DNA of 64,000 nucleotides from the NCBI RefSeq assembly GCF_023115355.1, contig NZ_CP096019.1:2232001-2296000 (forward strand), given 5' to 3'. The DNA comes from Halocatena salina (GTDB lineage: Archaea > Halobacteriota > Halobacteria > Halobacteriales > Haloarculaceae). Shown one piece after another: positions 33,533 through 61,447 of the stretch; within the stretch, counting starts at the first letter, position 1, and each line of letters starts with the position of its first letter. The notes under the pieces are model-generated. The model was given only the letters and a program-made list of their open reading frames with translations, did not search any database and was not told the origin of the DNA. The translations under genes were made by a program, and so were the position numbers.

Positions 33533-34116
33533 CTGTGGATCAGGCTGCCCGGGTTCTCCGTGATCGCAAAGCGGCGTGCGTCATCTATCCGACTGAAACC
33601 GTCTACGGCCTCGCTGCCGACGCGCTCACGCCCGCCGCCGTCGAACAGGTTTTCGAGCTGAAAGGTCGATCACGCGATCGACCCATCTCGCTTGCAGTTC
33701 CGAATCTCGACGCCGTCGATGACTACGCTCGACCAAGCGAACGGGAACGCGCGTTCATGGCGGAGTTCCTCCCCGGACCGGTCACTGTCGTGGTCGAACG
33801 TAGAGCTGTGGTTCCTGACGTGTTGACCGCTGGCAACGATCGAGTCGGTATCCGGATTCCGGACCATCCCACTGCACTCGCATTGCTCGACCGAGTCGCA
33901 CCCCTGACGGCCACGAGCGCGAACCGCAGCGGAGCGGGGAGCGCACGTCGCATCGAGGCGATCGATGCGGACGTTCGAGACGCCGTCGATCTCGTGTTGG
34001 ACGATGGGGCCACCCCGGGCACCGAGAGTACTGTGGTCGACGTCACAGCAGGAACGATCCACCGTCGAGGAGCGCTCGCCGAGGAAATCGAAGCGTGGCT
34101 ATCGACCACCGAGTAG
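33529..34116 (+). CDS. Sua5/YrdC/YciO family, threonylcarbamoyl-AMP synthase
   Basis: A 195-residue Sua5/YrdC-family protein, the first enzyme of tRNA t6A synthesis (threonylcarbamoyl-AMP from Thr, CO2 and ATP). Motifs: YPTETVYGLAADA near residue 20, the KGRSRDRPISLAV loop near 44, FLPGPVTVVV near 81, GIRIPDHP near 104 and TATSANRSG near 123. It overlaps the redoxin stop by ATGA. The last 18 nt overlap antisense with the Cas4-like gene. The long archaeal Sua5 C-terminal domain is absent, as in YrdC. Confidence 0.9.
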   Translation: MTVDQAARVLRDRKAACVIYPTETVYGLAADALTPAAVEQVFELKGRSRDRPISLAVPNLDAVDDYARPSERERAFMAEFLPGPVTVVVERRAVVPDVLTAGNDRVGIRIPDHPTALALLDRVAPLTATSANRSGAGSARRIEAIDADVRDAVDLVLDDGATPGTESTVVDVTAGTIHRRGALAEEIEAWLSTTE

Positions 34117-34749
34117 CGATCGTAACGATCTGGTTCTGACCCCACACGTAGAGCGGTACTCACACGATCCGCATTTGTCGGTGTTTCGCGTTCGAGGCGG
34201 CGGTCCGTCGATGCTCGCGGCCGTCCGCAGCGCACGGCGATACTGTCCCACGCGGCGCGGTGTCAGCTCGATCTCTCGAATCACGCCGTGGGTCGCGTAC
34301 TCTACGAACGCCCGTTGCACGCTCTCTTCTCGTTCCCACGCGAGCGCTTTCGCCGCCGCGACGGCACGTACCGCGTGGGGCTCCCACACGCCCCTGTCGG
34401 GCGGTTCGCCCACGGAAACGATCGACGGCGCAAGCGGCGTTTCAAGCACTTTGTGGGCGATGCCTCGCACCCGACGCCCAGTGAGAAACACCTCCCGTTC
34501 TGTCGGCTCACACAGCGCCTCAAACGCTCTCAGGCGTGCCTGCGAACAGTTCAGGTTCCGGCGATACGTTACCGGCGTGACCGCGATCGGTTCGGCGTCC
34601 AACGCGGTTTCCGGATCGAGCAGCAATGGATACTGGAAGGCGAGTTCGAAACCAGAGTGTTCGGGTGGCTCGTACGTCTCCTCGCGCCAGCGGTAGTACA
34701 GCTTTCGGGGACAGTACGCCGCCAGTGCAACATCGGTGAACGCGTACAT
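34099..34749 (-). CDS. Solo Cas4-like (DUF83) protein with lost nuclease motif
   Basis: A 216-residue Cas4/Dna2-related protein. It opens MYAFTDVALAAYCPRKLYYR, giving the first cluster cysteine at 13, and ends with CGSCEYRSTC, giving the other three, so the 4Fe-4S cluster is intact. The nuclease core is not: the conserved GxxD aspartate is a histidine (VRGIAHKVLE), and the E-x-K segment normally found next is missing (PSIVSVGEPPDRG). It is a likely inactive, DNA-binding-only relative. No other cas gene is near, although CRISPR arrays lie 25 kb away in the same window. Confidence 0.75.
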   Translation of the reverse strand: MYAFTDVALAAYCPRKLYYRWREETYEPPEHSGFELAFQYPLLLDPETALDAEPIAVTPVTYRRNLNCSQARLRAFEALCEPTEREVFLTGRRVRGIAHKVLETPLAPSIVSVGEPPDRGVWEPHAVRAVAAAKALAWEREESVQRAFVEYATHGVIREIELTPRRVGQYRRALRTAASIDGPPPRTRNTDKCGSCEYRSTCGVRTRSLRSLLGGR

Positions 34750-59299: not shown

Positions 59300-59694
59300 A
59301 TTTCAGTGCCTTGGTCAGTGCTGGCACAGTTGAAAGCAACACTCGAGATGTCGTGTATGGCCTGTTGGATGGTTTCAATGCCTTCGTCGCTGCTGGCACA
59401 GTTGAAAGTGATCAACACGTCATAACACCATACGTTTCGTGCAGTTTCAATGCCTTCGTCGCCGCTGGCACAGTTGAAAGCTACGGACTGGCGGCGGCTC
59501 GAAGCAAGTCCTCGTTTCAATGCCTATCGTCGCCGCTGGCACAGTTGAAAGCGAAGACTTTCAGAGTGTGTTTCTCCACGAGTACGGTTTCAATGCCTTC
59601 GTCGCCGCTGGCACAGTTGAAAGATTACAACTGGTCTCTACGAATTACGAACAGATCGTTTCAATGCCTTCGTCGCCGCTGGCACAGTTGAAAG
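59300..59694 (-). CRISPR. CRISPR array 1, six 37-nt repeats
   Basis: Six repeats start at 59300, 59372, 59444, 59514, 59587 and 59658, with five spacers of 33-35 nt that are unrelated to each other. On the plus strand the repeat runs GTTTCAATGCC to TTGAAAG with CTTCGTCGCCGCTGGCACAG in between. On the minus strand it ends in GCATTGAAAC, the canonical archaeal 8-nt crRNA handle, so transcription is probably leftward. The leftmost repeat is degenerate (ATTTCAGTG start), as expected at the leader-distal end. The copy at 59514 has a one-base insertion. No cas gene lies in the window. Confidence 0.93.
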
Positions 59695-59813
59695 AGGGGG
59701 TGAAAATCCATGGAGAACCCAAATAAAGCTTTCTCCATCGGTCTCAGCGCCACCCGTCTTCGTGGACCCCCCCCTGTACACGGACGTTATAAAGGTCCAC
59801 GAAGGACCAGCAA
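59695..59813 (-). promoter_or_regulatory. CRISPR leader 1 with BRE/TATA and hairpin
   Basis: 119 nt directly right of array 1 that match, at roughly four of five positions by eye, the 119 nt beside array 2 (61213-61331). Read on the minus strand it carries GAAAGCTTTATTT, a BRE plus TATA-like box whose TATA is 28 nt before the first repeat, so transcripts should start at the repeat. An 11-bp inverted repeat (CTTCGTGGACC at 59758-59768 and GGTCCACGAAG at 59794-59804) encloses a 25-nt loop. It is a strong leader candidate. Confidence 0.82.
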
Positions 59814-59829
59814 CACTGTCCGGATCCGG

Positions 59830-60111
59830 TCAGACGAGATCGAACTCGACGCCGTCGGTGACCGCTGTGACTACGGCGTCACACAGCTGGCAGTCCGGAG
59901 CACTCACGGTTTCCTCGCTCTCCGTTTCGACGCCGATGCGGAGCGAGGCCTCACAGCCACACGCCGGGCATTCGTCGGTTTTGGCCCAGCAGTAGCGCAG
60001 GATCGTCTCTTCGATGTCGTCGACGGCCGTCGACCGTCTGTCCGAGGCGCGTTGGGACTCGCTCTTGAGCACGTCGGTACCTTCAAGGTCGTTTGGATCA
60101 GAATCGAACAT
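59830..60111 (-). CDS. Small zinc-ribbon protein beside CRISPR leader 1
   Basis: A 93-residue acidic protein with CPACGCEASL near residue 48 and CQLCDAVV near 73, which make a four-cysteine metal ribbon. No family is recognised. It ends 16 nt before the leader of array 1 on the same strand, so read-through would enter the leader and array. An inverted repeat, CCCACAC...GTGTGGG (60163-60181), lies about 52 nt before the ATG and could be an operator or terminator. Confidence 0.65.
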   Translation of the reverse strand: MFDSDPNDLEGTDVLKSESQRASDRRSTAVDDIEETILRYCWAKTDECPACGCEASLRIGVETESEETVSAPDCQLCDAVVTAVTDGVEFDLV

Positions 60112-60463
60112 GGTCTTCTGGTCGCTATGGAGACCATCGTCGGGTGGTTAGGGCACCCGGCACCCACACAATCCGTGTGGGATTGTAACGCGGTCGGCCT
60201 CCGATCACATCGTTGCCCCGTTATGATATAAAACTCTAGGCCATCGTGTCGGTCGTGTCGATGGATTGGTTCGTATGCTCCGTGTGGGAGCGACGGCTAT
60301 CGGTGATGATGGATACGTGAGCGATCAAGTTCACCGGTCGGGTGGTAGTCGTGATCGCGTGTTGATGGGACAGACGTTTGTCGTGGTGCTGGTTTGCCCA
60401 TGGGAGCCGGTCGGTGTTGCGTGGTTGATTCCCGTGAGGCTACGCATCACCTGCCGACGAAGT
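60112..60463. other. 352-nt region with no supported gene
   Basis: This stretch between the zinc-ribbon gene and the relic array has no convincing open frame on either strand. It contains the inverted repeat CCCACAC-aatcc-GTGTGGG at 60163-60181. It may be the promoter region of the zinc-ribbon gene and otherwise decayed DNA. Confidence 0.5.
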
Positions 60464-60574
60464 GGCTTCGATGCCTCGTTCCGCTCTGGCACAGTGTAAA
60501 GATGCGTGTCATAAACGATATGGCGCTATACCGAGCGGTTTCAATGCCTTAATCGCTGCTGGTACAGTTGAAAC
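60464..60574 (-). CRISPR. Relic CRISPR unit: one good and one decayed repeat
   Basis: A repeat at 60538-60574 (GTTTCAATGCCTTAATCGC...GTTGAAAC) matches the array-1 consensus at most positions. A second, badly decayed copy lies at 60464-60501 (GGCTTCGATGCC...GTGTAAAG), with a 36-nt spacer-like gap. Size and spacing are those of a working unit, but the 119-nt leader that follows arrays 1 and 2 is absent here. It is a leaderless fossil of the same family, read on the minus strand by the same handle logic. Confidence 0.72.
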
Positions 60575-60608
60575 ATAGCGCGGGTTTGAATCCCGCTTGC
60601 GTCTTCGT

Positions 60609-60700
60609 CTATTCAAAGACGTTTTGGCAGTTACCACATATCCAGACCCCTTGGATTTCGTTGTTTCGTCGCTACCGCATTCCGGACACTTTTTACTCAT
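60609..60700 (-). pseudogene. Frameshifted small CPxCG zinc-finger gene
   Basis: A 92-nt gene that opens MSKKCPECGSDETTKSK and in a shifted frame continues GVWICGNCQNVFE and stop, together forming a typical two-knuckle CPxCG protein of 30 residues. One base is missing around the AAATCCAAGGGGTC stretch near 60650. Without the shift, the reading continues out of frame into the CRISPR relic and makes a spurious 63-residue protein. The alternative is a sequencing error. Confidence 0.65.
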
Positions 60701-60762
60701 ATCCGATTGATACTTGCTTTGGGTCCATTAAAGGGGTGCGGTGAGTGGATTGTTTGCTGCAA

Positions 60763-61031
60763 TCACTGAAGATCGTCATCGTTTTCGATCGGAACGAGTG
60801 TCGTCATGACATCCTCTAATTCCACGAAGATGAACATCTCGTTAGCGCCGCCTTCGACGATCTCGAATTCGTATTCGCCGCGGTGTTGGATTGGCGTCGG
60901 ATCTTGAATAGTCCGGTCCAATGTCCCACATTGTTCTTCACTGATAGGAGCGAGAACAGTTGCCCGTTGATCCGACTGAAATAGAGAAACAACCGTTCGC
61001 TTTTCGTTTCTAATATTTCGACGGTCGTCAT
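60763..61031 (-). pseudogene. Frameshifted small acidic protein gene
   Basis: A 269-nt gene starting MTTVEILETKSE from ATG 61031. The rest, in another frame, reads RTVVSLFQSDQRATVLAPIS, then GEYEFEIVEGGANEMFIFVELEDVMTTLVPIENDDDLQ and stop, which looks like genuine acidic haloarchaeal protein. The first frame instead becomes Ser/Asn/Arg-rich. A one-base deletion near 60990 (GAAACGAAAAGCGAACGG) explains it. The protein family is unknown. It is the second such lesion within 300 nt. Confidence 0.55.
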
Positions 61032-61103
61032 GAGTGCAACACTAATAATTGATGTATCAAAAATATTTCCTTGTGGCACGAGGGCCTATCACAGTCTGAG
61101 ATG

Positions 61104-61212
61104 ATTTCAATGCCTAGTCCGCCGCTGGTACAGTTGAAAGGAGACCAGTGATCTCCCCCTACTCGAAGAGGGAGAGTTTCAATGCCTTCGTCGCTGCTGG
61201 CTCAGTTGAAAG
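61104..61212 (-). CRISPR. CRISPR array 2, two repeats
   Basis: Two 37-nt repeats (61104-61140 and 61176-61212) flank one 35-nt spacer. The right copy (GTTTCAATGCCTTCGTCGCTGCTGGCTCAG...) is nearly the array-1 consensus; the left one is degenerate (ATTTCAATGCCTAGTCC...), so the leader-distal end is again at the left. The handle ATTGAAAC lies on the minus strand. The array sits immediately before leader 2 and 165 nt from tRNA-Pro. It may be an old, little-used array. Confidence 0.85.
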
Positions 61213-61331
61213 AGAGGATGAAAATCCGTGGAGCGATCCAATAAAGCTTTTTCCATCGGTCTCATTGACCATCCTCTTCGTGGACCCTCGCTGTACACGA
61301 ACGTTATAACGGTCCACGAAGAGACCAGCAA
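61213..61331 (-). promoter_or_regulatory. CRISPR leader 2 with BRE/TATA and 13-bp hairpin
   Basis: 119 nt related to leader 1 (59695-59813). On the minus strand GAAAAAGCTTTATTGG gives a BRE/TATA box whose TATA lies 28 nt from the repeat, exactly as in leader 1. The inverted repeat is longer here: CTCTTCGTGGACC (61274-61286) with GGTCCACGAAGAG (61311-61323) and a 24-nt loop containing TATAA. It ends 45 nt from the tRNA-Pro 3' end. Confidence 0.82.
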
Positions 61332-61376: not shown

Positions 61377-61447
61377 TGGGACCGCTGAGATTCGAACTCA
61401 GGTCCAACGCACCCCATGCGCAGAGGATACCACTACCCCACGGTCCC
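61377..61447 (-). tRNA. tRNA-Pro (GGG)
   Basis: 71 nt on the minus strand. The acceptor stem GGGACCG pairs with CGGTCCC and is followed by discriminator A. The D-arm region is TGGGGTAGTGGTATCCT, and the anticodon loop ATGGGGT gives GGG, which reads proline codons. The T-arm is CTGAG-TTCGAAT-CTCAG. The 3' CCA is not encoded. It is read in the same direction as the truB gene upstream, with a TTTAT box about 20-25 nt before the 5' end. Confidence 0.93.

Follow-up and report, generated by a model that had tools for sequence, protein, structure and literature searches.

The window, that is the whole stretch of 64,000 nucleotides analysed here, covers positions 2232001-2296000 of contig C1 of the Halocatena salina genome (G000), which was compared with H. 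pleomorpha (G042) and five further Halocatena genomes (G039, G040, G041, G043 and G044), seven in all with G000. CRISPR repeats, their leaders and a small open reading frame are found here on the minus strand, next to a tRNA gene:

59300-59694, minus strand: CRISPR array 1, six 37-nt repeats and five spacers of 34-35 nt (direct scan)
59695-59804, minus strand: leader of array 1, 110 nt
59830-60111, minus strand: ORF93, 93 aa, CxxC zinc-ribbon-like (zinc-ribbon match weak, below the cut-off), just upstream of leader 1
60112-60464, minus strand: region upstream of ORF93, 73-86% identical to copies near other arrays
60465-60574, minus strand: array 2, two degenerate repeats and one 36-nt spacer, leaderless
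60575-61103, no strand assigned: stretch of 529 bp between arrays 2 and 3
61104-61212, minus strand: array 3, two repeats and one 35-nt spacer
61213-61321, minus strand: leader of array 3, 109 nt
61377-61447, minus strand: tRNA-Pro(GGG), adjoining leader 3

The repeats of array 1, which read CTTTCAACTGTGCCAGCGGCGACGAAGGCATTGAAAC on the minus strand, start at positions 59300, 59372, 59444, 59514, 59587 and 59658. Three of the six match the consensus perfectly, including both leader-proximal ones, the fourth carries a 1-nt insertion and the last is degenerate. In array 3, the repeats start at 61104 and 61176 and have 2 and 6 mismatches, respectively. An earlier sequence-only reading had described arrays of six and two repeats belonging to one 37-nt family, with degenerate leader-distal repeats, and the direct scan agrees with this on both counts, but the leaderless pair of array 2 (repeat starts 60465 and 60538, 10 and 5 mismatches) had been overlooked. 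Near-identical 37-nt repeats, spacers of 34-37 nt and a period of 71-74 nt identify these elements as CRISPR arrays, as do, at the level of sequence features, a promoter-bearing leader and a conserved leader-adjacent repeat. A pattern scan of the H. salina genome gave 32 repeat matches and none for a backward-read control pattern, and the repeats are therefore far beyond chance.

Array 1 looks intact and functional. Array 3, as judged from its mutated repeats, its decayed leader end and the insert that splits it, is decaying, and arrays 2 and 3 are probably one array interrupted by the 529-bp stretch, with array 2 as the distal half. Nothing matching this stretch turned up in the related loci examined; by eye, it carries two small, apparently frameshifted ORFs, one of which is CxxC zinc-ribbon-like. 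At the orthologous site in H. pleomorpha, a leader remnant and one repeat are found, and since a stretch matching tRNA-Pro(GGG) precedes the leader remnant there, the array 3 locus is syntenic between the two species.

The conserved part of the leaders begins at an inverted repeat, CTTCGTGGACC...GGTCCACGAAG. In leader 1, the inverted-repeat core lies at 59758-59804 with TTTATAA inside, a second promoter-like box is found at 59721-59735, and a junction motif, CACCCCCT, adjoins the repeat. Leader 3 carries core mutations (ACAGCGAGGGTCC) as well as a changed junction, CATCCTCT in place of CACCCCCT. The proposal of twin 119-nt leaders holds insofar as the two are 83% identical over 121 aligned columns, but the conserved part is 109-110 nt long and the inverted repeat had gone unmentioned. 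A box near the first repeat had also been recognised in both leaders; it is the A/T box TTTATT, about 27 nt away on the minus strand. Minus-strand leaders of functional appearance and the ATTGAAAC handle were likewise upheld from sequence features. Changes in the two arms of the inverted repeat do not covary, and we therefore read it as a DNA site; the alternative of an RNA hairpin was set aside on the same ground.

No cas genes accompany the window arrays in the neighbourhood inspected, as the orphan label implies, yet the same replicon carries a cas operon at a distance of 133 kb:

G000:C1:2150067-2157357, minus strand: csm5-csm4-csm3-csm2-cas10-csx1 operon (PADLOC)
G000:C1:2157311-2158144, divergent from the csm operon: csm-locus cas6 (PADLOC)

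PADLOC reports Cas10a/Csm1, Csm2-5, Csx1 and Cas6 at this locus, and the presence of Cas10/Csm1 together with Csm2, Csm3, Csm4 and Csm5 in a single operon (C1:2150067-2156134 for Cas10-Csm2-5) makes it type III-A. A gap of 92 bp separates the start of the operon from arrays of the same repeat at C1:2148751-2149975, and it is the other end of the operon that lies 133 kb from array 1. Cas10 has a GGDD cyclase motif at residue 626 and the CARF/HEPN effector Csx1 has an RNWYAH motif; an HD motif was not found in Cas10, nor were cas1 or cas2 in the csm locus. Because of these motifs and the absence of a detectable HD motif, cyclic oligoadenylate signalling through Csx1 is the likely output of the system, going by what is established for type III systems; PMC11229360 provides the family context. 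We had also considered that Cas6 would have to be borrowed from a type I-D system, an idea that was dropped as cas6 is present in the csm locus itself. Within the window, a supposedly dead, solo Cas4 homologue does exist at 34099-34749 on the minus strand, but its frame of 216 aa is uninterrupted. It has a C-terminal cysteine cluster and, rather than being dead, may encode a normal solitary nuclease of haloarchaea.

The window arrays carry the same repeat and leader as the csm-associated arrays of three genomes, which adjoin csm5 (H. salina), adjoin csm (H. pleomorpha, G042:C15) or flank it (G040). The repeat is found at five more places on the H. salina chromosome, all on the same strand, and amounts to at least 34 copies over several chromosomal sites; with one site beside a complete csm operon and cas6, the arrays are no orphans genome-wide, and the dependence on a remote cas locus that the sequence-only reading had offered as one option is supported. 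Absence of the repeat and leader elsewhere, which that reading had named as part of its refutation, is not what was observed: both occur in other parts of the H. salina genome and in relatives. A scan of genome contigs detected the repeat in H. pleomorpha and in Halobacteriales archaeon YIM A00010, and a pattern search confined it to the genus among 146 genomes of the family; the G040 variant exceeded the mismatch limit of that search and was picked up later via its leaders. The repeat pattern is absent from IMG/VR. All five III-A variants are predicted to form a repeat hairpin with the stem UUUCA/UGAAA and GUGCC/GGCAU, which was left out of the evidence because its z-scores are only -0.6 to -2.1.

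Across the genus, all three genomes with csm and a csm-linked cas6 (G000, G040 and G042) contain multi-repeat arrays of this family, and none of the other four does. G043, which lacks csm, retains no more than two solo degenerate repeats with their leaders, csm and arrays of this family are both missing from G039 and G041, and G044 has csm and I-D and no array of the family, either at its csm locus or by pattern search. The G044 csm operon (G044:C1:1537218-1544358) occupies the same chromosomal site as in H. salina, next to CDC48-like and larC-like neighbours (named by eye). Having no array and no cas6 of its own, it might use I-D crRNAs. When the H. salina Cas10 was searched against 392 genomes of the order, representing 95 genera, matches were obtained in Halocatena only.

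A complete type I-D system is encoded on the plasmid contig C5 of H. salina (PADLOC), with a complete effector set, intact cas1 (C5:114390-115400) and cas4, and, on inspection of the sequence, a cas2 located between cas1 and the leader. Its two arrays are built from another 37-nt repeat, GTCACAGTACCCTAGAAACCCAATACGGGATTGAAAC, which differs from the window repeats in its body and has only the 3' handle in common with them, so that the window arrays are assigned to III-A and not to I-D. Their leaders, on the other hand, are clearly related. In III-A and I-D leaders alike, the 46-nt inverted-repeat core encloses a TATA-like box, another box stands about 27 nt away from the repeat, and CACCCCCT forms the junction; I-D leader motifs are thus present at III-A arrays. 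Ten III-A and 13 I-D leaders are collinear, and in all 23, which come from six genomes, the right arm stands 63 nt from the repeat; leaders with a longer G run, which fell outside the pattern selection, agree with this. Outside the core, 37 of the 63 consensus positions agree, compared to a mean of 15.5 in shuffles, none of which (0/20000) reached 37. Segment by segment, the identity of III-A and I-D leaders is highest in the core (0.91), intermediate at the junction (0.72) and in the box (0.71), and lowest in the linker (0.39). The figure for the core is biased upwards, since leaders were collected by a core pattern with up to three mismatches; the remaining segments are free of this bias. 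Repeats are 37 nt long in both families, whereas the repeats of I-B arrays recur about every 65 nt and these arrays were not matched in the whole-genome leader search of H. salina. According to the passages of PMC10212523 that describe Kieper et al. 2019, I-D leaders contain motifs that control spacer acquisition.

Additional CRISPR elements were noted on the way. At G000:C1:1196761-1196900, a lone leader of I-D type precedes a single degenerate I-D repeat and represents a chromosomal relic array, and at G000:C3:125049-125741 a Cas1 gene with two in-frame stops lies beside apparent type I-B genes. A gene for a Csa3-like CARF/HTH regulator (G000:C5:123068-123748) adjoins the I-D leader, and its product is a candidate binder of the inverted repeat.

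ORF93, a protein specific to the genus, has paralogues in H. salina at C1:1968398, 1972482, 1979438 and 2149070, near array groups of this family. In H. salina, H. pleomorpha and G043 together, nine related copies were found, none of them farther than about 1.6 kb from repeats of the family, and the copies are under purifying selection (omega 0.07-0.44). We speculate that ORF93 might be an accessory of the arrays. As the genus also has remoter homologues in other places (about 40% identity), the link may reflect duplication of the array as a unit.

The spacers give some insight into the history of the arrays. The array at G000:C1:2148751 and its H. pleomorpha orthologue have the oldest spacer in common (34 of 35 nt identical) and differ in the leader-proximal ones, and window array 1 shares no spacer with its orthologue at G042:C15:160989-161242. 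With a single old spacer in common and all newer ones different, spacers were evidently gained after the species split. The suggestion that the arrays are relics or stalled thus fits the two-repeat array, with its decayed repeats and leader end and its insert, but not the six-repeat array. A search for phage and plasmid targets, advised by the sequence-only reading, was without success: the spacers of this family from H. salina and H. pleomorpha, joined as one query, had no match in phage records, those of H. salina had none in plasmid records, and the 21-nt cores of the five array 1 spacers had no exact match in IMG/VR. When genomes of the order were searched with the spacers, no more than two candidate places being scored in each genome, so that own-genome targets could be missed, most matches were partial and at chance level. 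Self matches aside, the only near-full-length one with a plausible gene was in G039, where a spacer of array C1:1968958 matches 31 of 37 nt of a RecB/Cas4-like nuclease ORF. By eye, the target region is provirus-like, with many small phage-like ORFs; the target protein had no relative when scanned against IMG/VR. The 5' flank, GTT, is compatible with the I-D PAM, GTN (PMC10212523), and the antisense orientation to the ORF with type III targeting, evidence that is anecdotal as it comes from one imperfect protospacer. Spacer length does not tell the systems apart.

Starting from the observed gene and repeat content, leader homology, synteny and turnover of spacers between species, we propose that the window arrays are very probably satellite arrays of the chromosomal type III-A system. 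We also lean towards the view, suggested by the leaders, that the III-A arrays are supplied with spacers by the plasmid-borne I-D adaptation module, and regard the combination of satellite III-A arrays with I-D adaptation in trans as likely. In this model, the promoter in the leader would drive transcription of the array on the minus strand, and the csm-locus Cas6 would cut the pre-crRNA at ATTGAAAC, after which the crRNAs would be loaded in trans into Cas10-Csm2-5. Binding of complementary invader RNA would switch on the Cas10 cyclase, and the resulting cyclic oligoadenylate would activate the Csx1 RNase. New spacers would be written by the type I-D Cas1-Cas2-Cas4 of C5, which would recognise the common leader by its core, the 63-nt spacing and CACCCCCT; that one Cas1-Cas2-Cas4 serves both array families appears to be the simplest reading. 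An extended version, in which the 46-nt core in addition serves a single common factor, perhaps Csa3, as its docking or operator site, and ORF93 is a new accessory of the satellite arrays, strikes us as doubtful.

The effector side of this model could be explained differently. If the arrays were fossil remnants in slow decay, with no working system behind them, the degenerate, split array 3 with its mutated leader end, the true relics of the same family in G043 and the lack of spacer matches in IMG/VR and in the phage and plasmid records searched would all be expected. We consider this quite improbable, given the three perfect repeats and intact leader of array 1, the presence on the same chromosome of a complete csm operon and its cas6, and the different spacers in the orthologous H. 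pleomorpha arrays. The arrays might instead be satellites of the plasmid I-D effector, with Cas6d processing the crRNAs and I-D Cascade taking them up; the complete effector set is available on C5, and the arrays have the leader, the repeat length and the ATTGAAAC handle in common with the I-D arrays. However, the repeats differ outside the handle and the family tracks csm and its cas6, not I-D: G040 has csm and arrays and neither an I-D Cas6 nor a Cas1 of any kind was found there, and G044 has I-D and csm without such an array at the csm locus or in the pattern search, which makes this explanation rather improbable.

For a III-A satellite array, the source of the spacers is a separate matter. 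In H. pleomorpha, the I-D locus (G042:C30, positions 1-2800 of the extracted locus) has kept cas2 and the effector genes through cas6, and has lost cas4 and all but 52 C-terminal residues of Cas1. I-D adaptation can therefore not be current in this species, nor in G040, whose arrays of this family are well preserved next to csm but which has no detectable Cas1. Acquisition may now have stopped in both, and the common leader may reflect shared descent rather than present use. Alternatively, the I-B Cas1-Cas2 of C5 could carry out adaptation, the leader resemblance to I-D being a matter of ancestry; the I-B Cas1 is uninterrupted in H. salina and also present in H. pleomorpha, where I-D cas1 is broken. 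This, too, is quite improbable, as the I-B repeat is different and shorter, the leader search missed the I-B arrays, and the III-A leader retains the I-D junction sequence and spacing.

The chromosomal system of H. salina resembles other type III-A (Csm) systems in its Cas10/Csm1 GGDD motif, Csm2-5, Csx1, Cas6, 37-nt repeats, ATTGAAAC handle and adjacent arrays. It differs from them in that the locus is without cas1/cas2, no HD motif was found in Cas10 and extra arrays are scattered over the chromosome, and in being seen in one genus only among the 392 genomes of the order. With haloarchaeal type I-D, it shares the leader architecture, junction, repeat length and 3' handle, whereas the repeat body differs and the I-D genes have their own arrays on a plasmid contig. 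A comparable division of labour has been described for Flavobacterium columnare, where a VI-B locus is fed in trans by a II-C adaptation module, as shown by cas1 deletion (PMC8092290). There, too, an RNA-targeting locus without cas1/cas2 coexists with an adaptation module of another type, but leaders and repeats differ between the two, whereas the Halocatena leaders, compared as sequences, are clearly homologous. Similarly, the adaptation-deficient III-B locus of Sulfolobus solfataricus, in the summary given in PMC8092290, uses a co-resident type I system; the subtypes are others, and the conclusion was reached there from PAMs and similar CRISPR sequences and here from a shared leader. For the genus itself, a type III locus with Csx1 and TIR-SAVED has already been reported in Halocatena sp. 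RDMS1 (PMC11229360), satellite arrays or leader sharing not being treated in the passages of that account drawn on here. In the H. salina csm locus, as annotated here, no TIR-SAVED gene came to notice.

Taken together, these data put on record a type III-A lineage that was found in one genus only within the 392 genomes sampled from the order. The I-D and III-A leaders, which have equal length, the same core and junction and a free linker, point to the elements that an integrase must recognise. The genus also offers the states needed for comparison, with I-D and III-A intact in H. salina, III-A and a broken I-D cas1 in H. pleomorpha, III-A and no detectable Cas1 in G040, I-D and csm without an array or cas6 at the locus in G044, and relic arrays without csm in G043. 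Arrays that appear to be orphans thereby become a natural test of the sharing of an adaptation machine between CRISPR types.
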